Shown here piece after piece: positions 5,387 through 49,743 of a DNA stretch of 64,000 bases. Origin of the DNA: Brachionus manjavacas. Taxonomy: Eukaryota; Rotifera; Eurotatoria; Ploima; Brachionidae. The notes beneath the pieces were generated by a model. The model was not told the origin of the DNA, made no database searches, and saw only the letters and a list, made by a program, of their open reading frames with translations. The DNA lies in assembly GCA_019054805.1 (NCBI GenBank), contig JAHQIY010000007.1:1369501-1433500 (forward strand), read 5' to 3'. The translations under genes were made by a program, and so were the position numbers. Each line of letters begins with the position of its first letter. The stretch's first letter is position 1.

Positions 5387-6935
<1,549 letters not shown>

Positions 6936-15694: not shown

Positions 15695-16054
15695 TTTTTT
15701 ATATAAGTGTCTACACTTTTAATATTTTTTTTCGCTGCTTGGTTATACAAGGAACAATTCAATTTGACGAATTTTCTTCGTTTGAATCTTTAAGTAATCA
15801 GATATAATAGACAGTTAATATCTTCAAAGAGAAAAGTTTTTAAAAAATTCCAAAATATATTGTATTAACAAACAGAGTCGTAAATCTAAAAAAGAAAAAG
15901 AATCAAAAATTTAATTAAATTATGAATTCATTTAAATTTTATTCACATAATAAGTAAACTAAAAAAAGGAAACAAACTAAAAAAATTATTTATTTTTTGT
16001 ACAACCATTTAAAAAAAAAACTTTCTCTTTTTTTTTAAACATTTTTGTTAAAAA
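15695..16054. other. AT-rich spacer between convergent EXT1-like and coatomer gamma genes
   Basis: No gene seen. Likely 3' flanking sequence of both neighbours, whose 3' ends face each other. Confidence 0.5.
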
Positions 16055-16348
16055 AATTGAAAATATTTTTTCTCAATCCATTGCTAAAATCGATTTTAAA
16101 TCTAACTCATTTTTTGTAAAGTTTATTTTGAAATTTTTTGATTCAAAAATATTGGTAGGAAAGATCGATCTTTTCATTTTATTAATTAATTAGAATTAAA
16201 TATTTGAATTTCATTTTTAAATTTAATTTTGAAAGCTAAATACAAATCCTTTTGAATAAAAAAATTTCAAAATAAACTTTACAAAAAATGAGTTAGATTT
16301 AAAATCGATTTTAGCAATGGATTGAGAAAAAATATTTTCAAATTTTTT
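16055..16348. repeat. Foldback element with about 90-bp inverted arms
   Basis: The left arm (about 16055-16147) and right arm (about 16253-16348) are near-perfect reverse complements, for example CTCAATCCATTGCTAAAATC on the left and GATTTTAGCAATGGATTGAG on the right. They are separated by roughly 105 bases of A/T-rich spacer. No coding sequence fits inside. This is typical of a MITE or foldback transposon; no target duplication could be fixed in the A/T-rich flanks. Confidence 0.8.
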
Positions 16349-22523: not shown

Positions 22524-23160
22524 AATAACGCTTGTCCGAAATTTCAATTAGAAAAAAGCTTATGATCAGATAATTATTAAATTATGAAAATTTACAGTTT
22601 GATACAAAATTTTCTCTATTTAACGAAAATAAAAATGGGTTTTTAAATTTTTTATTTGTTCGCATGCTCTATGAAAAAAAACTCTTATAAAAGTGCTTTA
22701 AATTAAACACGAATATTAATTAGACATTAATTTAAAACATTTGTGTGTAAAATTTCAGGTCAATATCTAATTCTGGTCGAAAGATATTTGAAAAAAACGA
22801 TCAATTTACTGAATTTTCACTTTTTCAAAAAATCCTAAGATTTTGCTGTTTTTTTTTACCATTACTCCTTCAAAAATCATCCGTTAAAAATAAAAAATAG
22901 CTCATTTTAATCAAATTAAAATTTTCTACAAATTGATATATCATACTTGTATTCGAATTATCTTGACTACCGAGGATAATTTTGGATCAGGGTATGTGCT
23001 GCACCTGAGCATAGAGCATGCGAACAAATAAAAAATTTAAAAACCCATTTTTATTTTCGTTAAATAGAGAAAATTTTGTATCAAACTGTAAATTTTTATA
23101 ATTTTATCATTAATCTGACCATAAGTTTTTTTCTAATTGAAGTTTCGGACAAGCATTATA
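22524..23160. mobile_element. Non-autonomous DNA element with about 145-bp terminal inverted repeats
   Basis: The left arm (22524-22674) and right arm (23010-23160) are reverse complements with scattered mismatches. Landmarks are GCTTGTCCGAAATTTCAATT at the left end, GGACAAGC at the right end, and the inner boundary TTCGCATGCTCTATG against CATAGAGCATGCGAA. The roughly 335-base interior has no long open frame. The long TIRs and absent coding sequence fit a MITE-like derivative. Superfamily cannot be assigned: no clean target duplication was found. Confidence 0.8.
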
Positions 23161-25049: not shown

Positions 25050-25241
25050 TACAGTGTTGATTTGACACGTGGGTTTTGACCTAAAATTACGTAAAATTAC
25101 GAAAATTTACGTAAATTTACGTTAAATATCGTAAAATTACAATTGTAAAATTTGGTAATTTTACAAAAATTTACGTAACTTTTCGTAATTTTACGTAATT
25201 TTACGCTAAAAAGGGTAAAAACTAAAAGGCCAAAAATTGAA

Positions 25242-25427
25242 ATGGTCTCGAGTGAGTTAAAAAGGTTAATTCTTTCAGAATGTCCAGAAAATGAACAAGA
25301 CGTCATTGATGCAATTTTTAATTTTCAAAACAGATTAACTGCAGAGAAGTGTATCCATTATATAAACCATATTAAAAAGGTATTATTTAGTGTACAAACA
25401 TTTTTAAATTCGAGTTTAAATACATAA
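25242..25427 (+). CDS. Small ORF in unit 1 of the dimeric TIR element
   Basis: A 61-codon frame opening MVSSELKRLILSECPENEQD and containing RLTAEKCIHYINHIKK. It is charged and not low-complexity, unlike chance frames nearby. The block with Thr-Ala-Glu-x-Cys followed by a hydrophobic/basic helix resembles the C-terminal tail of some Tc1/mariner-type transposases, so it may be a transposase remnant, but I cannot confirm that. A GTATT donor-like site follows the Lys-Lys-Val codons, so the true frame could once have been spliced. Confidence 0.35.
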   Translation: MVSSELKRLILSECPENEQDVIDAIFNFQNRLTAEKCIHYINHIKKVLFSVQTFLNSSLNT

Positions 25428-25813
25428 ATTTAATATAAGGTGATACCGATTATAATTGAAAAGAATGGAGAATGGTCGAATCATTAAAATATATTCTTAC
25501 ATTCTTAACATTTAAAAAATAAAATCTCTGCTTAATATCTATTTTAATTTTAAACTTTTTACGAAATTTTACCACTTTTAAACTCAAATTTTACGAAATT
25601 TTACGTAAAATATCGTAAATTTTTTTTCTCGAGTTTGAAACTTATATTTTGTTGAATTTGAGCAAAATACCAAAAAACGGCGAATTTTTGGCCTTTTAGT
25701 TTTTACCCTTTTTAGCGTAAAATTACGTAAAATTACGAAAAGTTACGTAAATTTTCGTAATTTTACGTAATTTTACGCTAAAAAGGGTAAAAACTAAAAG
25801 GCCAAAAATTGAA

Positions 25814-25999
25814 ATGGTCTCGAGTGAGTTAAAAAGGTTAATTCTTTCAGAATGTCCAGAAAATGAACAAGACGTCATTGATGCAATTTTTAATTTTCAA
25901 AACAGATTAACTGCAGAGAAGTGTATCCATTATATAAACCATATTAAAAAGGTATTATTTAGTGTACAAACATTTTTAAATTCGAGTTTAAATACATAA
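25814..25999 (+). CDS. Small ORF in unit 2 of the dimeric TIR element
   Basis: Identical in protein sequence to the frame at 25242-25427. The identity reflects the recent 572-bp duplication and is not itself evidence of selection. Confidence 0.35.
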   Translation: MVSSELKRLILSECPENEQDVIDAIFNFQNRLTAEKCIHYINHIKKVLFSVQTFLNSSLNT

Positions 26000-26378
26000 A
26001 TTTAATATAAGGTGATACCGATTATAATTGAAAAGAATGGAGAATGGTCGAATCATTAAAATATATTCTTACATTCTTAACATTTAAAAAATAAAATCTC
26101 TGCTTAATATCTATTTTAATTTTAAACTTTTTTACGAAATTTTACCACTTTTAAACTCAAATTTTACGAAATTTTACGTAAAATATCGTAAATTTTTTCT
26201 CGAGTTTGAAACTTATATTTTGTTGAATTTGAGCAAAATACCAAAAAACGGCGAATTTTTGGCCTTTTAGTTTTTACCCTTTTTAGCGTAAAATTACGTA
26301 AAATTACGAAAAGTTACGTAAATTTTCGTAATTTTACGTAATTTTACGTCAGAACCCACGTGTCAAATCAACACTGTA

Positions 26379-30200: not shown

Positions 30201-33200
30201 TGCTCCACAAATTTCGTTTTAATAAGTCTTCTTAAGACCTAATTTACCTAGTTTTTTTGTTTGCCCAAGTTTTTCTATAGAAAAAATTGAATATGTAATA
30301 AGTAAGAATGAAAAATTAAAAAATTTGACAATAGCTCCACTTATTGTGTTTCAGATCCTTAAGATAAGAAAAGCTTTTAGTAAATTTTAAAATTTTTACC
30401 TTGAATGTAATCAATTAATAAAAAATAAATTTGATATTACAAAAAGATAAAATAATTAACTATTCAAAGATTTTTGACAATATATTTAAAAAGGATCAAA
30501 AATTTAAGTTTAATGTTTAACTAAATACTATAAAGTAATTAAGTACAAAAAGGAACAGGGTCAAAAAAAAAAAAAATACCAAAAAGTACTAAAAGTACAA
30601 AAAGGATTGTAACTTTATAATACGTCTATATCAATAGCCATGGTCAATCACACAATATTTTCTTGAACATTCATGATATTTCACAAGCTTTCATAATTAT
30701 CTTTATGCCATAAAAAATATAATAAATTTGATTTAAAAAATATCGTGAATATTTTTAATTTTAAGAATCTTAATAATTACTAAAATTTCCCAAAAAAAAT
30801 TACAAAACATTTCTTCAAAAACCCTTGAAAAAAGATAATATTAATGAATTAAAAAAAGAAGATATTTAAAAATATTGAAAAATATTCGCGAATATTTTTT
30901 TTCAAAATCTGAAAAACACACTATAAAAACTTTTTTTTAACAACCATTTCATGACATCTTTTGAATTAAATTTTATATGCTTTTATTAAAATTTGATTGA
31001 TGAAATATGTACATATTGATCATTGAGATTTGTGAAAGAAATGAAAATTCGGCAAAAAATTATGAAAGCTTGTGAAATATTATGAATGTTAAGGAAAATA
31101 CTGTGTGAATGACCATGCCTGTACCTCGAAAAAAATCAATGCCCACAGTTCCATCGTGATCGCACTTCTGATCATTTAGTTTATTGAACATTTAATTGCA
31201 AAAATTTTCTTTTTGTTTTTTTTTCAAAAAATAATTATTTTAATCTAAAATTTTTTTTAAAAGCTGATTTAAAATTTAAAAAAATATTTTTTATTTAAGT
31301 TCTTCAAAAGCTAATGAAGAAAGGTGTTTTTAAGAATGACTCAAATGATAAATTAGCCTACAGTTTTGTTCGATTACATAAATCATACAAAGATGAATAC
31401 CCTACACAAGTAAATACATTGGAGTACCTTCGTGATCGGGAGATCAACTATTTCATACCAGCTGAACAATTGTATCGAATAAAAGTGGATCAGTGTGATG
31501 ATACCTTTCTCAAAAATTTTGCTTTATATTATAAGAAAACTTTTGAAAAAGCAGTGGATCGAATTGTGCGCGAAAATTCCCAGTTTTCTTATGATACGCT
31601 GAATGAGCAAGTTTTGTATCATTTAAATTATATAAAGCTCAACAGCATAAATGAGGTAGCTCCCAGAACTCAGAGTATCATCAAAATTATGACCGATTAT
31701 GTCCTAGACAACACGTTCAGACAACCGTTCATTCTGACCGGAGATTCAGGAAGTGGTAAAACCAGCATTATTTCGACATTAGCAAGCAATCTGTTTTTAC
31801 AGCTGGCCGCAAATGATTATTCTAGTGAAAATCTCCCACATCATGCAGTTGTAGTTCGATTTATTGGAATTGATGGCAAATGCGAGTACTTGCGCTATTT
31901 ATTATACAGCATTTGCTGTCAATTACAATATATCAAAACAGGATCTCTGTCCAAAATAAATCTAGTTCCAACCAACTTAAAGGAATTAAAGCATTTCTTT
32001 AGAAAACTTTTAACTGAAGACTGGGAAACCGATTTAAACAAACCCAAAAGAAAGATAATATTAATTCTGGATTCTTTGCAGGATTTGAAAAAATACGATC
32101 ATTCTTACAAATTCGACTGGTTGCCGAAATTTTTAAATCCTTTATTTAAAGTTATTATCAGTGTTTCGTCCCAGTCGAAAGAATTAATCGAAAGATTAAA
32201 CAGAAAGTATTCAAATCGCCAATGTTATGGCCAAGTGGAGAGTTTGAATTATGAGCAGGCTGAATACATGGTGAAAAAATTATTAACTTCAAAAATGTAT
32301 CGACTTGAGCCTCCTCAATTAGATTTTATCTTTAATTTAATTAAAACAAAAAATATTCCTTCTCTAAGTGTTAAAATTTGGTCAGAAGAATTTCTCAATT
32401 GGAGATCGCATACAAGTACAAATGAATGCGTTCTGAAGGATACACTTATCAAGGCAGTACAATATTTTCTGTTTAAATTGGAAAAAAAATTCGAACCTAC
32501 ACTTGTTAAGCATTTGTTGAGTAGGTTTATTAATATACAATAGGACAGATCCCGCGTGGTCTAGTGGTTAGGATTTGACGCTCTCACCGTCAAGGCCCGG
32601 GTTCAATTCCCGGCACGGGAAAATTTTTTTTTCAGCATAATTTTTTGAAGTTTTAGTTCATTAGAAAAAAAATTTTCCCGTGCCGGGAATTGAACCCGGG
32701 CCTTGACGGTGAGAGCGTCAAATCCTAACCACTAGACCACGCGGGATCCTAATAGAATACATTAGTTTATACAATTTTCTAAAAGGCTATCTAACAATTT
32801 CGTTGAGTGGCTTCAGTGAAATGGAACTTCAGGACATTTTGTCTCTGGACAATGAGCTTATGAAAGTTTACAAAGCGAAAAATCTTATCAAACCTACTGA
32901 TAATGTGTTACGCATGCCTTGGCTTTATATTTTAAACATTCTAAACTATTTAAGAAACCATTTGCTAGTAAAACCTTTGCATGGAATTAACATAGTGAGC
33001 TGGAAGCATTCAATTTTTAAACAAATAATTTCAGAAAAATATTTAAGTGAGAAAAAATAAAGTTGTTTATGTTTATTATCTAAAAAGTAAATTTTAAGCT
33101 GATAGAAAATTTTCGGCACATTTGCATAAAACTGTTGCTGAATATTTTCTTGGAATATGGTCAAGTCCAGCTCAGAAACCACTCAAATATCAGACTATTA

Positions 33201-36200
33201 CTCTGCCAAAGTCTGATGATAGTGACAAACAATTGAGCATTGGTAAACCTATAATTGATAACTATGAAATACAAGTCGATAGGCTTTGTCCCATACAACC
33301 GATTCAATATGAATCATTTCATACTCATGTAAAGCCGAGATACAATCTAAGAAAATTGGCTTTATTACCATATCATTTGGTAAATGCAGACATGATAAGT
33401 GAAATTTTTGAAAGTGTTTTTTTTAACATTGAATGGATATATGCAAAAATAAGAGCTTTTGATTTATTTTCAGTTTTGTATGATTATGACCTGCTTAAAA
33501 GTGATCCGGAAGTTAACTTGGTCTGTGAAAGCTTGAAAATGTCCGAATCAGGTAATTTTTTAAAATCTGAAAATATGAGATAAAACCACATTTTACCCTA
33601 AGCAATCATCGAGGATCCAAATTTGTTATTCAGTCAACTAATAGGACGTCTTTTGCCGTATTATCAAATTTTCAATAAAATACAAGGCTTTGTTGATCAA
33701 TGTGATGCAAAAAGCTCAATAATTAACCCATTGATTCCTATCGGGCAAATTTTTGAATCACCTGGTATTTATTTGTAGCCGTAAAAAATATTTCTGAAAT
33801 TTTCTTAATTAAGCTTGGCTTTATCAGAGCACTATAGATATGGGTATTGATTCGATTGAGAATATTCAACTCGAGTTAGTTGAAAGTGATTTCAATGGTC
33901 AAATTTTAGTTTATAAAAAGTTAATGAATCCAATGACGAAATTTTTTGACATGAATTTATTGGATTTCAAAAATGAGATCTACAACGGAAAAGGTAAATT
34001 TGTAATACTCATGACTTCCTGTAATTTATGGTTAGATATAAAATGTGATATTTAGAAATGATTAAAATAACTAAAATGCGATAGATATTTTCATTAAAAA
34101 AATTTAATGCAAATAGCTTTTAAATTCTATTCAACTCCGAATTACAATTTATTAAAATTTCCGCTGCTTAAGATATGTTTAAAATAGAAAGAGAAATTTT
34201 AGATTTTGTTTAAAATTTCAATATTAATTAAACAAAAGTTTTTTTTTAATGTCAAAGTTAAAATTTAAAAATGACTTTTCTTTTTGATTTGATTAATTTG
34301 AAACTTAGAAAATTTGAAATAATTTAGAAAAAAAAATTGGTTCAAATTTAAAATAATTTCCTTTTTTATATGTCTGTCTTTATTTAAATTAGCTATATCA
34401 ATAAAATTGGGTAAAGGGTAAAGTCAAATAAAAATCTGGGAAACTCATACGAAAAAAATTTTTTTGGAAAACCGAAAAAGTCATATAAACGACTTTCATT
34501 TCTGGGAAAGTCATATAAAAAATTCTCAAATTTAGTAGTTTAGTTTAACTGCAGCATGTATGCATTACCGAAGTACTTAGCTCAAAAGTGAGCTTTGGCA
34601 GTTACCATTCAATTTTACATCCAAAAAACCCTTGAAACTATTTAAACTCTTCGCCGTGATTGCTTTTTCAGACAATTTATTTCAGTAAGGTACAATTCTA
34701 TTTGTCAAAAACACGTCTCGTGGTGTACACTTTCCACCGCGTAACTTTTCTATGCAAATTTCAAACCATATTTTAAATTAACCGACTAGTAGTCATGGAC
34801 CATCTTAAAAATTTGAATAAGATCACCTCTAACGCGTCTCTCTTCTAGAGTTGTCAAAGAGAGAGCCTTCAGTCTTTCAGTATAAGTTAGGTTCTTTAAT
34901 CCAGCGACAAGCTTAGTTGCTCTTTCTTGAATCTTTTGAATTCGAGTTATATCTTGTTTCAAATGCGGTGACCAAACACTAATGGCGTATTCTAGGTGTG
35001 CGTAATGACGAACACTAATGGCGTAATGACGAACCAGTGTCATGTAGAGCAGACGAAAGCATTCTTACTAAGATTCTTAAAACATCTTCTAATTACCCCA
35101 ATCATGCTGTTTGCCTTGTTGACTGCTGTGTTCACATTCATTGACCATTTTAAATCGCTTGTTACGCAGACACCAAGATCCTTCTCACCTTGGCTAACTG
35201 AGAGAGCACTTAGAATTCCATCCGTATCATGCATAAAATACTTGATAGTTTTATTCTTTGACCCAAAGTTCATAATTTTACACTTTTTGCGGTTTAACTG
35301 CACCTCCCAAATTCGCGACCATTCTTCAATTTTAAAAATGTCATTTTGAAGGGTAGAGGTCAACACTTCAGAATACTTATAAATTTTAAAAATTTTGTTG
35401 TCATCAGCATACATTCTACACTCTGACTCAAGAACTTCCGGTAAATCATTAATATAAATAATGAACAAAAGTGGACCCAAAATGGATCCTTGTGGCACAC
35501 CACCGGTTGCATTTGCCCAGGCTGATTTTGATTCACCAAGAACAACTCGTTGCATCCTATCAGATAAAAAGTCACTTATACAATTAAGGATAGGACCATC
35601 AATTCCATAATTTTTTAGTTTTAATAATAACTTACGATGTGAAACTTTATCGAACGCTTTGCAATAATCTGTAAAAAGAACATCTATACAATTACCTTCG
35701 CTCAAGGAACTTGTTATTAGATCAAGTGATTCCAATAAATTTGTAGTTCAACATTTGTTAGGAACAAAGCCTTGCTGAACATTCGTCATCAACTTGTTGA
35801 TAATCAGATATTCCAAAAGACTTTGCTTTATTATCTTCTCTAACATTTTGCAGAGTATACAAGTTAGGGAGATAGGTCGATAATTACAAATTGGTAAAAT
35901 TACAAATTTGGTAAAATCCCTACATTATAAATTTGGTAAAATCTTATAATACTAGGGTTAAGTCAAAAAAAAAAATTTGTTTTTTTAAGTAGGAAGATAA
36001 AGCTTAGCTAGGTTTTTTTTAAAAAAAAAGATTTAAGATTTTTTTGTATTCGTTTATTTCTGTGTCACTTTTATCCGTAATATAATTAATTATCAATAAA
36101 TTTTGTATTAAAAAAAACAAAATTTTTTTTTTTGACTCTACCCTAGTATCATATGACTTCTGTATGACTTTCCCAGAAATGAAAATCGTTTATATGACTT

Positions 36201-39200
36201 TCTAGGTTGGCCAAAAATAAATTCTTAAATCTGGTAAAGTCATATAATACTAAGGTCAAGTCATTTAGATAAAGGATTTATCATATTAAAGAGACGAAGC
36301 AAAAAGTTCAATTGCAATTTTTTCCATTATTTTTAAAAATTAAATTTTTTTATATTAATATTGACAGTAAATTATTTAATCAATATTTGTGAAAACGATT
36401 AGAAATTTTAAAAAGTGATAATGATGGACTTATTGAAATTTAAAAGAGTTGTTTTTTAAATATCTTTTTTTGCATTTTTTGTCGACTGTGATCATATTTT
36501 TGCATATGTTATTAATAATTACAATAGATGAAAAAAAATTTAAAACAAGCAAATAAATTTAATTCGTGAAGAACTTTTGAATCGATATTGCACTTAATTA
36601 CATTAATCTACCCAATTTAAATTATAAATTTAAAAGAATATCAAATCAGATTGTTTAGAATAAAATTTTTTTATTTGATTCAAAACTAGCTAATTTAAAT
36701 TTTTAACTAAAAATTAAAAAACACAATTTAATATTATTGTGGGAAGGTGTAGTTTGGAACAATTTTTCTCTGAAAAATTGCGTAATTTTTTTAAATTACG
36801 CAATTTCATAATTTATTAAAAAATCATTGAGTTTCTAGTAAAAAAAAAATTACCAAGTTTTACTTTTTTTTCGTAAATTTACGTAAAAACCTTTTTCTCA
36901 AATGGTAAAATTTTAAAAAAGAGTAAAAATAGTAAAAAATACTAAAATTTCAAATGTCAAATCACTACTGTAAATTTATTGATAAACTATTATTATTATT
37001 GTAATTATTAAAATTAAATTTTAGTTATTTCAGACAGATATTTTACATATCAAATATTTTTAAGATATCATTAGTGAATACTTTGATAAAAACTTAAAAA
37101 ATTTAAATAAAAGAATTCAACATTCAATTTTTTAATTATTGCAAAATTAACTTCAAAAATCAATAATCGATTTTCAATATATTTTTAACTTTGAAATTAT
37201 CATTTTATATTTAACAAATTTTAATGCTCTGCTCCATATAAAAATTGCCCCCAACTTCACTCTCCCTATTATTATTTGATAAATTTATTTATCTAATTCT
37301 ATTTTATTAATTTATTTATTAGGTAAAATCTATTGTAATAAATCAGGTGATTTTGTTTGTATAATCGAAAACAATTCAAAGCTTATCATCCGAAGAATCG
37401 AAAGTGGGGAATTTTACGGAAGTGTTGAATTCGAGCCATGCGAAATAGCTCATGTTGTTTTATCCTCGAAATTCATTTGTTTTATTCTTCGTAAGATACC
37501 ATCTCCCCTTATCATCGATCTAAACAGTTCCACTTTAATTAAAACACTTCCTTATCCAACCTGTTTTTGTGCAATAAGCCCGGATGATACTGTAATCGTT
37601 GTGCACAGCGAGAATAGTCTGAACTACCATTCGATACCCAGTTTTGATAGACTTATCACTCTTGATTCGGCTGAAATACCCGACAAAATTCTCTTTGCAA
37701 ATAACAACCGCAAGCTGTTCGTCTTGTCCAAAGACACCAAACAAATAACTTATTTTAAGCTAATTTTGGAAAAAAAAATCAAAACATCAGAACATGTTCT
37801 GCAGGATCCGAACATATTCGACATGATGGCCAGCAGTGACGAGTCAATGCTAATTGTTTGTGCTCTGTATTGTGTTTACGTCATCCAAATTAAAGACTCT
37901 ATAAACATTAAATTTAAAATTAACTTAAGTGAAGTTGAGTCTTATATAAATTTAGATCCCAAATTAGTGGACGACTCTCTGGCCTCTTTTAATTCAAGAT
38001 CTCAGTCAAAAAACACGTTCACGGGCTTCGGGTGCACTCGCAACCAAGCTGTAGTATACGCTACTATGTACACCTATTTGGTCTGCTATGATGCCCATTC
38101 TGGACAGTTGCTGCGAGTTTTTCAAAGCACCTTGTCTGCCAATAGAATAATTAAAACAATTTCAAGCCGGTTACAAGATCTGGCTGTATCTTTGCTTGAT
38201 GATGGAAAAATTCTTATCTGGAATTTAGAGGCCATCGACTACAAGGACATCAAGTTCGAAGACCAGCGAATTTTCAATAGCAAAATCGATGCATGCTTTT
38301 CACCACAAATTGATCATAATTCAAGCAAAAATTCAAACTTATGTCTTGTCTATTCTCGAGCTTATCCCGATGCCAAGACTCTTCACTCGAAGAGAAACTT
38401 TCACTCAAAATCAGTGGTCAAGACATGCTACTTCGAAAAAAATGATAACCCATTTACCAGTCAAATTAAACATGCTTGTTTAGATGATAATGGAAAATTT
38501 TGTTTCATGGTAACTGATGTGGAAGATTTTAATGGCAAAAAATGTCCCCAAGAAGAAGGATTTTACAAGAAAATTTGTTCTATAATTGACCTAGGCAATG
38601 AGAATAGAGTAATTGACGAATTTTCGTATGTAGCTCGAAAAAATTCGCGCCTGGAAATCAATGGTAAATTTTTAGCCAAAAAAAATGGTTCCATAGACGA
38701 GACATATTTAATTATAAGGCAAGTTAGTTGCTTGAATGATTTTGATGCGTACAGTAGCGAAAATTTGGACTGGACTGAGTTCGAAACTTGCATCAAAATA
38801 ATGGGACCCATAAACAGCCATGTTTCCAAAGTGGAGCTTTTTGACGAGTTTAAACTCAATGGAGATTCTCTAGAATCCAATTTTTGCATCAATAAAGCCG
38901 CTGTATTTGCTTCATTAGTCCAAGAGTGCTCAAAATTGTATGACAAACAAGTTGCTGGTTTGATCAAGGCAAAACGAGTCGATGTTCATCTAGATGTTTA
39001 TGATCTATTCCAAAGTAGAGAAAAAAATTTGAAGGTGCAAGTTTTTAGCCTGAGTGAATTTTTATCAAGTGAAGAAAATCTAGGAGGCAAAAATGTGTTC
39101 ATTGATATCCGAGTTTTGGGCGATCAAAATTTTTTTCTGATCTATTCAAAAAATGGTTTCGGAAAAGACGATCTTAACCATTTTGAATTTGATTTGGAAT

Positions 39201-39973
39201 CACTTAAATTTAAAAGAAATATTAGAGGCGATAAAGCTGCCTTTATTTATGACCCTCATAGAAGTCAAGTTGTCAAAAAATTTAGTTCTATATTTAATTC
39301 GGAAATAGATGTAGAGAGAGTCGTTTTTTCCCAAGGTGACTTTGTCATGGATAATCAATTGAATTTATATGACTTGAAAAACAATAGTTTGGTGAAGAAT
39401 TTTGGAAATATTTTGGTGAAATTTGATTTTAGCTTTGTTATTTTTATTTCGAATGGAAGATACTTTTTGACGTGTACAGAAGAGCGAAGAAAAATTTTGC
39501 TAATTCGCTGTTATGATTCGGTTTTGGTGGCTAGCGTTAGACTGACTGATGAAATTAGCTGTTTGTCCATTGGGGAAAACGAGCGTACTATTCTTATCGG
39601 AACAGTAAATGGTTATGTTTGGCCATTAAAATTGGTGATAGATTTGGAAAATAATGAAGCTATTAATAGTTATATTAGATTTTACCGAAATGTTCAGGAG
39701 TATGTAAGTCCTAGCAGTTCCTCATTTGATTCAAAGAGTGCTGATCTCAAAAATGACTTGAAACGAGTGTCGCATTCAGCGCACGCGCACAGAGCTTTAA
39801 AAACAATTGAATCCAAACAAGCTTTTCTCACCACAAAAAATTCTTATACGTCTTCTAATTACAGTAAACTCGAGTCAGATTTTCATTCAGGTCTATCAAA
39901 ACTGAGTCTGACACAGATTTCGAGTGGAATAAAACAAACAAGAAGTCCAAGCAAGGCTTGCATTATTCAGTGA
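27261..39973 (+). CDS. NACHT and WD-repeat domain protein (NWD1/NWD2-like)
   Basis: A STAND-type NTPase with an N-terminal DUF4062-like region, a NACHT ATPase and a C-terminal beta-propeller. Exons: 27261-27387, 27439-27527, 27614-27718, 27827-27995, 28048-28167, 31300-32520, 32786-33046, 33099-33551, 33603-33764, 33814-33993 and 37323-39973. They total 5538 nt, 1845 aa. All junctions are GT-AG and in phase, and eight of ten introns are phase 1. Residues about 33-110 match the NWD N-terminal fold (RSIRIFLCAPYS, FPKLREYCMSRYGLEFQV). Walker A is GDSGSGKT (351-358); Walker B is IILILDS (456-462). A winged-helix-like part includes SGFSEMELQDILSLDNEL and HKTVAEYFLGIWSS. The last exon holds degenerate WD-like repeats (LLDDGKILIWNLEAID) and a Ser-rich tail. 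Vertebrate NWD2 is about 1740 aa. Cellular role of the family is poorly known; some link NWD proteins to receptor and neuronal signalling. AATAAA at 40086. Confidence 0.92.
28337..28372. repeat. Possible piggyBac-type terminus at a TTAA site
   Basis: TTAA is followed by GACTAGAATGACTGGTGTCA, whose GGTGTCATTTGACACC core (28354-28369) is a perfect short palindrome. TTAA plus a GGTGTCA palindrome occurs at ends of some piggyBac-like elements. No partner end was found in this window, so this is only a suggestion. Confidence 0.25.
30636..31119. mobile_element. Non-autonomous TIR element in NACHT-WD intron 5
   Basis: The left arm AGCCATGGTCAATCACACAA and the right arm, reverse-complemented AGGCATGGTCATTCACACAG, are similar. 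The match continues for about 70 bases through TATTTCACAAGCTTTCATAA. The interior is A/T-rich without an open frame. This fits a MITE of about 480 bp; no target duplication could be fixed. Confidence 0.78.
32550..32620 (+). tRNA. tRNA-Glu (anticodon CTC), plus-strand copy
   Basis: The cloverleaf can be drawn directly: D-arm TGGTCTAGTGGTTAGGA, which carries the A box; anticodon stem TGACG/CGTCA with loop CTCTCAC, giving anticodon CTC; T-arm CCGGG-TTCAATT-CCCGG, whose GGGTTCAATTCCC carries the B box. The acceptor stem TCCCGCG/CACGGGA has one C-A mismatch at pair 6-67. No intron. AAAA and then a run of nine Ts follow, a Pol III terminator. The mismatch leaves some chance that it is a pseudogene; both copies share it. 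Confidence 0.9.
32676..32746 (-). tRNA. tRNA-Glu (anticodon CTC), minus-strand copy
   Basis: Reverse complement of the copy at 32550-32620, identical over all 71 bases including the acceptor-stem mismatch, and also followed by A-rich then T-run sequence on its own strand. The two genes converge, so transcripts would run toward each other across a 55-base spacer. Confidence 0.9.
34408..36262. mobile_element. Old TIR element split by a LINE insertion
   Basis: Left part 34408-34517 and right part about 36140-36262 are diverged inverted repeats of about 110 bases. The best blocks are AAGTCATATAAACGACTTTC and TTCTGGGAAAGTCATA on the left, against their complements AATGAAAATCGTTTATATGACTT-like and TATGACTTTCCCAGAA on the right. 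Most of the material between them is the LINE fragment below. The simplest reading is a MITE-like element later hit by a LINE. Confidence 0.6.
34576..35895 (-). pseudogene. 5'-truncated LINE (CR1/Jockey-like reverse transcriptase), minus strand
   Basis: On the minus strand the order is: NYRPISLTCILCKMLEKII (about 35.88 kb); FTDYCKAFDKVSHRKLL (catalytic Asp); GVPQGSILGPLLFIIYINDL; MYADDNKIFKI (the YADD box, intact); the DLGVCVTSDLKW thumb; then, after a frameshift near 35040 and local duplication of a short CGTAATGACGAAC unit, HLEYAISVWSPHL and RRVRGDLIQIFK; finally VFLTNRIVPY-stop-NKL and SLNSFKGFLDVKLNGNC to about 34576. Endonuclease and 5' part are missing. Stops and frameshifts make it inactive. 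It lies antisense in the NACHT-WD intron. Confidence 0.88.
36948..36970. repeat. Orphan TIR end related to the dimeric element at 25-26 kb
   Basis: The right end ATGTCAAATCACTACTG, followed by TA, resembles CACGTGTCAAATCAACACTG-TA of the dimeric element. It is likewise preceded by CGTAAATTTACG-type strings (36873-36890). No matching left end was found nearby, so this is a truncated relative. Confidence 0.45.
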
Positions 39974-47117: not shown

Positions 47118-47807
47118 ATGTCTTATTTAGATAATGATCCTTATCAGCTAAACTATTCGATTTATGATTATGATGACGAGTATCAAGACTATCATAGACA
47201 ATATATGGACTATTATAATTGGTACTGTGAATATAGTGAAAACTATTATCCAGAAAAAAAAGGAATTTTTAAACGTATAAGAAATTTTTTTAAAAATATG
47301 ATAATTCAAGACGAATGGTCTGACGATGAATATGACTATGATTATTATCAAGATACGCAAAAATCTTTTTCTAAAAATTCTTTCTCCCCCTTTCGATCTG
47401 ATCGTTTTACGAATAAAAGAAATATTTTTCATTCTACTTATATGCCTAATAGAAGTTACTATTCAAACAATGATGATTACGACAGCCAAAGTGAAAGCAG
47501 TAGCTTTGGAATGAGTAATGGTGGAAGCAGTAGCTTTGGAATGAGTGATGGTGGAAGCAGTAGCTTTGGAATGAGTGATGGTGGAAGCAGTAGCTTTGGA
47601 ATGAGTGATGGTGGAAGCAGTAGCTTTGGAATGAGTGATGGTGGAAGCAGTAGCTTTGGAAGTAGCAGTATTGGCAGCAGTAGTAGCGGAATTAGTAGCA
47701 GTGGAAGCAGTGATAGTGGAAGTAGTAGTAGTAGCAGTAGCAGTAGCAGTAGCAGTAGCAGTAGCAGCAGCAGCAGCAGTAGTGGTGGTAGTGGAAGTAA
47801 TGATTAA
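47118..47807 (+). CDS. Tyr/Asp-rich protein with Ser/Gly repeats and a polyserine tail
   Basis: I do not recognise the family. A single exon gives 229 aa from the ATG at 47118 (MSYLDNDPYQ); an in-frame ATG at 47061 would add 19 residues but has a T-rich context. No signal peptide is evident from 47118. Residues 1 to about 90 are strongly Tyr/Asp/Glu-rich around a basic amphipathic stretch (KKGIFKRIRNFFKNMI). Next comes a Ser/Asn region, then a 10-residue repeat, G-S-S-S-F-G-M-S-D-G, five times, then Ser-Gly-Ile spacers, about 25 serines and a Gly/Ser end. The composition suggests an intrinsically disordered, structural or matrix-forming product. AATAAA follows at 47876. A real gene is favoured because the composition changes in blocks and the frame stays open through non-repetitive DNA; expression data would decide. 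Confidence 0.6.
   Translation: MSYLDNDPYQLNYSIYDYDDEYQDYHRQYMDYYNWYCEYSENYYPEKKGIFKRIRNFFKNMIIQDEWSDDEYDYDYYQDTQKSFSKNSFSPFRSDRFTNKRNIFHSTYMPNRSYYSNNDDYDSQSESSSFGMSNGGSSSFGMSDGGSSSFGMSDGGSSSFGMSDGGSSSFGMSDGGSSSFGSSSIGSSSSGISSSGSSDSGSSSSSSSSSSSSSSSSSSSSSGGSGSND
47491..47660 (+). repeat. 30-bp coding tandem repeat, five units plus a partial
   Basis: Units of 30 bases (GTGGAAGCAGTAGCTTTGGA then ATGAGTGATG) start at 47491, 47521, 47551, 47581 and 47611. The last three full units are identical at every base and the first differs at two or three positions. A sixth unit is cut after AGCTTTGGA. Identity at silent sites points to recent expansion or homogenisation. Confidence 0.95.
47722..47781 (+). 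repeat. (AGT/AGC)n trinucleotide tract coding polyserine
   Basis: About 20 uninterrupted AGT or AGC codons, mainly alternating AGTAGC. Likely length-polymorphic. Confidence 0.9.
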
Positions 47808-47881: not shown

Positions 47882-48359
47882 ATGAATATAACTTTGCTAA
47901 AAAATTAAAAGATAATTAGAAATTAGAATTTTAATAATTTTAATACAAATTTACAATTTTTCCTTTTTAAAGGTTTAACTTTAAGCATAAATTGAACAAA
48001 AACAAGTTCGAAATTTATATATTTAAATAGTGGAAAATTTTTAAATTAATTATATTTTATTTAACATTATTAGGCATTTTATCAGTTCATAATATGTATT
48101 TTCATTAAGCAACTGTCTTTAGTCAAATCTTATAGATTTTTTAATTTAATTCTTAATAAATTTTGATATATTAAATCCGGTTTCAGTAAACAATCGACGC
48201 TGTCATAACATCGAAATTTTGACCTCATATTCAAAATATCAGTCCTAAGAAACCCTTAAAAAAAAATTTGTTTTTTTTTATCCTGTCTCCTTTTCAAAAT
48301 TTAAAATTAGGATTGAAAATATCTAGTCCATATTTTTACTCTTTGTTTATTTTTCACTT
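47882..48359. other. AT-rich spacer
   Basis: No gene seen between the Ser/Gly repeat gene and the LINE. Confidence 0.5.
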
Positions 48360-49743
48360 CTAAAGGGAGGTTCTAAATTGTCACCAAAGAATTATCGTCC
48401 TATCTCGTTAACCAGTTTGATTTGCAAGTTACTAGAGAGCCTAGTAAAAGATGTAATGCTAGAACATTTATTGGATAATAACCTCATATCTGGCTGCCAA
48501 CATGGTTTTTTGCCAGGTAAATCATGCCTGACAAATTTGCTAGAAACAATGGACATAATTACTAAAGCTCTCGCACAAGGTTTTTCGGTGGATCTGGTGT
48601 ATACTGATTTTGCGAAAGCATTCGATAGAGTTTCGCATGATAAGCTTTTGTATAAGCTTAATTTTTATGGTTATGGTGAACGTATGATAAGATGGATCAC
48701 ATCGTTTTTGAAAGGTAGAACTCAGAAAGTGGTACTTGGTGAAACATGTTCAAATTGGATAGATGTGATAAGTGGAGTGCCTCAGGGCTCAGTACTGGGG
48801 CCATTACTTTTGTTATTTATATTAATGACATGTTAGAACTTATAGAAAATGAATGTGAAGCTTATGCAGATGATACAAAAATTATATCAGTAATCAAGAG
48901 TTTCAGCTCGATCCTTAGCCTACAATCGGATTTAGACAACATATGTTGATGATCAAGGGACTGGTCAACATCATTGAATATTGATAAGTGCAAAGTTTTA
49001 CATATTGGCAACATGAACACAAAATTCGATACTCTATCGATTCAAAACCGCTCAACAACTCTGTTTGCGAAAGAGACTTAGGTATTTATATCCAAAGTGA
49101 CTTGAAATGGGATTCTCAAATCAAAAATGTGACTGCAAAGGCAAACCGTATATTGGGGATGATTCACAGATCTTTCAAATTCCCAACAACAAAAATAGTA
49201 AGACTACTATACTGCTCACTTGTCAGGCCTCATTTGGAATATGCCATCAGCTCATGGTGTCCTTACTTAGAAAAAGATATAAATGAGATCGAAAAAGTGC
49301 AGCGTAGGGCGACGAGGTTAGTACCTGAACTTGCAGATTTGGATTATCCACAACGGCTATCTAGACTGAAATTACAAAGTCTAAGAACAAGAAGGATACG
49401 TGGAGATCTAATCCAAATGTTCAAACTAGTGAACAATATGGAGATTGTGAATTTCAGAAATGGTTTAAACTACAGCTTAAACACTAGGCCTGACAGCAAA
49501 ATGTATAATCTCAGAAGAAACTCCAAGAACTTGATGCGAGAAAGAGTAAAGAATTGTATTCATCGATTTAATTACTTTACTAACAGAGTTGTTGATGTTT
49601 GGAATAAGTTGCCAGAAGAAATTGTAAGTTGCTAAGATTGACGTTTGGATGACGAAACACAATGAATCGACTGCTATAGCTCATTAGAGCTTTGCTTGGA
49701 CTAGCTCCAAGTTGCAGTAATTACTACTACTACTACTACTACT
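48360..49743 (+). mobile_element. 5'-truncated LINE with (TAC)n tail
   Basis: A non-LTR retrotransposon lacking its 5' half and ending in a trinucleotide repeat, (TAC)7-8 at 49722-49743, in place of poly(A). Its 3' UTR is short, about 85 bases after the ORF. It is inserted between the Ser/Gly repeat gene and the IGSF9-like gene. A target duplication could not be fixed. Confidence 0.85.
48375..49635 (+). pseudogene. LINE reverse transcriptase, frameshifted
   Basis: Order of motifs: KNYRPISLTSLICKLLESLV; VYTDFAKAFDRVSHDKLLYK (catalytic Asp); GVPQGSVLGPLL; then a frameshift near 48800; EAYADDTKIISV (YADD intact); stops near 48948; a second shift; then RDLGIYIQSDLKWDSQIKNV, RPHLEYAISSWCPYLEKDIN, RRIRGDLIQMFKLV and FNYFTNRVVDVWNKLPEEIV to the stop at 49633. 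It is clearly the same clade as the minus-strand copy in the NACHT-WD intron, and better preserved. At least two frameshifts and two stops make it inactive. Confidence 0.9.

Follow-up and report, generated by a model that had tools for sequence, protein, structure and literature searches.

The window analyzed here, a 64-kb stretch of DNA taken as a whole, contains two tRNA genes according to ARAGORN and two according to Rfam at the gathering threshold, both at 32550–32746, and neither program returned a third tRNA-like match in the window. Both are tRNA-Glu(CTC) genes that pass the RF00005 model (57.9 bits each, gathering score 29). One lies on the plus strand in the sense orientation of a protein-coding host gene (32550–32621), and the other lies on the minus strand, antisense to the host (32675–32746). 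The two copies are identical at 72/72 nt and converge tail to tail at a distance of 53 nt, adjacent and well within the 1000 nt used to define such pairs. A preliminary description of the locus had proposed two identical, inverted tRNA-Glu genes within a predicted intron, and this is borne out, with the identity corrected from 71 to 72 nt and the spacing between the genes from 55 to 53 nt. The acceptor mismatch that it had described as common to both copies can be read from the sequence as C6-A67; this shared mismatch leaves tRNA-Glu function unproven.

Each gene is followed by its own T-run, beginning 2 nt beyond the tRNA: a T9 run at 32624–32632 on the plus strand and a T8 run at 32665–32672 on the minus strand, both resembling Pol III terminators, a role that is established for such runs. 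Candidate internal A and B boxes were read by eye against the consensus (B box GGTTCAATTCC). The leader upstream of the plus-strand gene ends in AATAGGACAGA, that of the minus-strand gene in CTATTAGGA. Both genes probably work, each being transcribed on its own by Pol III to yield one and the same tRNA. Products that end at their own T-runs would be identical for 80 nt or more and would not be complementary; the best duplex between them is predicted at −47.8 kcal/mol, about twice the single tRNA fold of −24.8 kcal/mol. Double-stranded RNA from terminated Pol III transcripts is therefore ruled out, and because the products are identical and the T-runs separate, convergent dsRNA requires read-through. 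The earlier suggestion that converging Pol III transcripts might form dsRNA is thus a weak one.

The tRNA genes are embedded in a palindrome whose left arm (32548–32631, plus strand) and right arm (32665–32748, minus strand) form a perfect 84-nt inverted repeat around a 33-nt spacer (32632–32664), giving a stem-loop of 201 nt in total. The inverted repeat had been recognized previously, and it is perfect as stated, with arms of 84 nt around this spacer instead of 71 nt. We simulated 15 windows from a first-order Markov model of the 64-kb sequence, allowing spacers of up to 500 nt, and the longest perfect inverted repeats that arose by chance measured 13–18 nt; chance is therefore excluded as the source of the palindrome. 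Long perfect inverted repeats in the window are not unique to the tRNA site, as others have perfect arms of 59–87 nt, the longest, 87 nt, belonging to another palindrome. Beyond the tRNA itself, each arm extends by 2 nt on the upstream side and by 10 nt on the downstream side, the latter consisting of the terminator's A/T stretch. An extension of the arms into decayed flanking sequence is unsupported, as 1,793 of 2,000 shuffles reach the best inverted-similarity score of the flanks. With arms that approximate the tRNA plus its terminator and no inverted similarity outside them, the perfect identity of the copies is a weak sign of recent duplication or gene conversion, contrary to the earlier reading.

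Folding of the host pre-mRNA predicts an 84-bp hairpin, longer than the roughly 71 bp suggested before, with the spacer as its loop and a minimum free energy (MFE) of −177.4 kcal/mol; shuffled sequences averaged −60 kcal/mol (sd 4.64), and none of 200 was as low. Both splice sites of the surrounding intron lie beyond the long stem, yet the first three intron bases are paired in a small local stem in the MFE and centroid folds alike, so that we can only infer from the model that the donor would be accessible. The hairpin falls below every Rfam gathering score for microRNA precursors, with MIR2606 as the best match (60.7 bits versus 139.7).

Host Gene and Intron Structure

The intron that holds the pair is predicted at 32521–32785 on the plus strand, a phase-1 GT-AG intron of 265 nt in a NACHT/NWD-like gene. 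Upstream lies coding sequence for a NACHT-like P-loop NTPase domain (31299–32520, plus strand, where 31299 is the start of a stop-to-stop ORF and not a defined exon start), and downstream an exon for an NWD1-like winged-helix domain (32786–33046, plus strand), followed by the next intron at 33047–33098. The best Pfam match of the translation of 31299–32540 is NACHT, whose score of 25.4 bits narrowly misses the cut-off of 26.7. Taken by itself, with its end read a little further on, the downstream exon scores 27.7 bits against HTH_NWD1 (cut-off 27); the next host ORF matches APAF1_C (24.1 bits, cut-off 22.8); and a later ORF of 896 aa gives a weak match to the NWD2_C beta-propeller (21.7 bits, cut-off 33). 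NACHT-WD, as the host had been called, is thus a fair label, even if the NACHT and propeller matches stay under their cut-offs.

We tried nine GT-AG pairs around the tRNA intron, four of which are free of stops when joined. The 32521–32785 join yields an HTH_NWD1 match of 34.1 bits (profile positions 21–118) that runs across the junction, whereas the three other stop-free joins score 25.8, 25.5, and 24.3 bits, all below the cut-off of 27. The gain of about 6 bits over the exon alone is support for this intron, not proof. The claim that removing 265 bases restores the host frame stands, with the best domain score among the four open alternatives. If retained, the intron would place a stop codon in frame at 32541. 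Frame and domain score put both tRNA-Glu genes wholly within the predicted intron.

Subtracting the 201-nt stem-loop from this intron leaves 27+37 = 64 nt. This residual length is close to those of the two well-placed introns nearby, namely the 52-nt host intron at 33047–33098, which was the only open combination listed, and the 65-nt Sec61-alpha intron at 6356–6420, which is set by two exon alignments to solved Sec61. Other introns of the host are less sharply delimited: the second one downstream allows six open combinations of 51–104 nt, and the third could measure 49, 73, or 55 nt. For the second we take the length to be presumably 51 nt (33552–33602), a choice made by eye from an NWD-like reading of the next exon that does not make this intron well placed. 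Like the tRNA intron, the 52-nt intron (33098), the 51-nt intron chosen by eye (33602), and the Sec61 intron (6356) end in AAG, perhaps a lineage preference.

With the splice sites outside the long stem and a residual intron of 64 nt, the hairpin could be neutral or even helpful, and the interference with splicing that had been raised as an outcome appears weak. The next large host ORF (37283–39973) starts about 3.3 kb past the end of the last exon that was read, and a reverse-transcriptase ORF sits in the gap; should this gap be an intron, long ones would be tolerated, with no need for special looping-out.

Discussion

Our preferred explanation, which we hold to be probable though far from assured, is that one tRNA gene was duplicated locally, in inverted orientation, inside an ordinary short intron, with both genes probably active and the hairpin looped out of the host transcript. 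The starting point would be a spliceosomal intron of about 64 nt in an animal NACHT/NWD-like gene, carrying one tRNA-Glu(CTC) gene. An inverted copy of that gene would then have arisen a few dozen bases off, the simplest routes being template switching during replication or some other small local inverted duplication. Both copies would have kept the tRNA structure, the internal promoter regions, and a T-run of their own, each being transcribed by Pol III to give the same tRNA. During Pol II transcription of the host, the arms would pair as an 84-bp hairpin and be looped out, so that a normally sized residual intron with both splice sites remains. We infer the Pol III activity, the mechanism of duplication, and the splicing behavior from a locus whose anatomy, copy identity, frame, and domain continuity across the join are directly observed. 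The most economical account of the hairpin is that it is a by-product tolerated by splicing.

Each element of the locus has a precedent in other animals, and the arrangement itself is real and tidy. Of the tRNAs of C. elegans, 47% are reported to lie in introns; 56% of the intronic ones share the orientation of the host, and those on the host strand have lower Pol III occupancy (PMC4999229). The present pair resembles those described there in that tRNA genes on either strand sit within introns of protein-coding genes, but differs in having two identical, opposite copies in one predicted intron. A survey of eukaryotes describes adjacent tRNA pairs as mostly parallel, the antiparallel ones in Caenorhabditis being biased toward the tail-to-tail form (PMC2888827); ours is likewise adjacent, convergent, of the same amino acid, and within 1000 nt, whereas the cluster section of that survey reports on orientation and pairing, with a parallel majority, and not on intron location or arm identity. 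Template switching is reported to create and mend perfect hairpins, yielding perfect inverted copies (PMC8794818), and to homogenize hairpin arms (PMC8604942). The palindrome shares with the hairpins of PMC8794818, as they are presented, the short perfect inverted copy and the small spacer; unlike them, its arms coincide with a tRNA gene, and the event behind it is a putative one. In yeast RPL7B, an intronic stem is reported to aid splicing (PMC12311795). Among the literature matches listed, mostly non-subscription, we recognized by title or abstract start no description of identical tRNA genes forming a palindrome that fills an intron, and we make no claim to a first report.

Several observations temper the case for local duplication. 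The positions of the arm ends would also be expected from independent insertions or from an old duplication whose flanks have decayed, and, since most adjacent pairs in the survey are parallel (PMC2888827), an inverted pair is not the usual form. The perfect identity of the arms provides no date, since the tRNA and its terminator could be held identical by selection alone, acting on a multi-copy tRNA family; the arms would fit both a very small segment duplicated recently and an older duplication with decayed flanks. The shared C6-A67 mismatch would favor a local copy only if the genome's other tRNA-Glu genes are without it. Sequence collections were also searched for relatives: the exact tRNA pattern occurred in 0 stretches of the viral and 0 of the prokaryotic contig collections, the tail-to-tail pair pattern and a relaxed tRNA-Glu(CTC) pattern each in 0 of the viral one, and for protein relatives of the NACHT exon two viral stretches matched the pattern and 0 were confirmed. 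As these collections are viral and prokaryotic, the blank results say little about relatives.

The palindrome might instead have landed whole in the intron as an inserted mobile unit, either MITE-like or a pair of retroposed tRNA units, and the 8-nt direct repeat TATACAAT found on both sides of it, together with the other long, near-perfect inverted repeats of the window, some of them foldback- or MITE-like in look, would suit such an origin. The direct repeat, however, does not abut the arms; among 3,000 randomly drawn pairs of sequences from the window with matching geometry, 159 have a shared word of at least 8 nt, and 172 of 2,000 shuffles reach the score of the flanking repeat. Removing the insert with one copy of TATACAAT would leave an intron of 31 nt, shorter than any placed here, and a third tRNA-like match, as another copy of such a unit might give, does not occur in the 64 kb. 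Given that chance frequency and the 31-nt leftover intron, we do not claim TATACAAT as a target-site duplication, and we regard insertion as unlikely. It is also quite unlikely, in our judgment, that the tRNA genes are secondary and the pre-mRNA hairpin is itself the functional element, whether as an hpRNA-like Dicer or ADAR substrate giving rise to siRNAs that match tRNA-Glu or as a selected splicing structure. In its favor are the 84 perfect pairs, with a predicted fold far better than shuffles, and a report that in human reporters splicing can be promoted by intronic tRNA-like elements (PMC7722341). Against it, two inverted, identical tRNA genes produce perfect pairing automatically, and the sub-gathering matches to miRNA precursors in Rfam are what any long hairpin might give.

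Amplification and read folding are known to create perfect palindromes as artefacts, and a single tRNA copy could in principle have been doubled as a fold-back chimera during library preparation or assembly. A simple fold-back would stay inverted and not return to the host gene, whereas here the outer flanks differ and bear the matching donor and acceptor of one intron, making an artefact very improbable. We would add, as a speculative extension that we think improbable, that selection maintains the palindromic form: inverted pairs may be tolerated or favored in very short introns because the pair, folded as a hairpin, hides the insert from the splicing machinery, leaving an effective length of about 64 nt with one gene always against host transcription, and the hairpin may in addition supply a small-RNA pathway that targets tRNA-Glu.

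The locus illustrates, as one example, how an intron of about 64 nt could carry a 201-nt palindrome. If both genes work, it would offer a compact natural test of the interplay between Pol II and Pol III, with one gene oriented with and one against host transcription, and the two identical tRNA genes can be distinguished by their leaders and trailers.

Other Features of the Window

The GC content of the window is 27.7%, a value that many taxa could fit; monogonont assemblies are reported at 24.95–31.14% (PMC11954553), so that a Brachionus-like monogonont rotifer would be a compatible, tentative source. A near-perfect, AT-rich palindrome at 16050–16348 has arms of 108 nt that are 95% complementary and that match perfectly over a core of 83 nt (16057–16139/16259–16341); it is not a tRNA, and in Rfam it gave only matches to miRNA models, below the gathering score. 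A MITE/foldback-like element at 22571–23112 consists of 103-nt arms, 97% complementary with a perfect 87-nt core, enclosing 336 nt, and weaker inverted similarity (81%) continues out to about 22525/23159. Nested direct and inverted repeats of TAAAATTACG-like units occupy 25050–26378, with several possible pairings and arms of up to 95 nt. Two ORFs encode LINE-type reverse transcriptases (RVT_1), at 35040–35747 (minus strand) and 48327–48836 (plus strand); the former, antisense to the host gene of the tRNA pair, has ORFs of that gene on either side and lies perhaps within a long intron. Finally, a Ser/Gly-rich coding repeat at 47490–47782 recurs every 30 bp with 98% match across 47491–47661 and is followed by an AGTAGC run.
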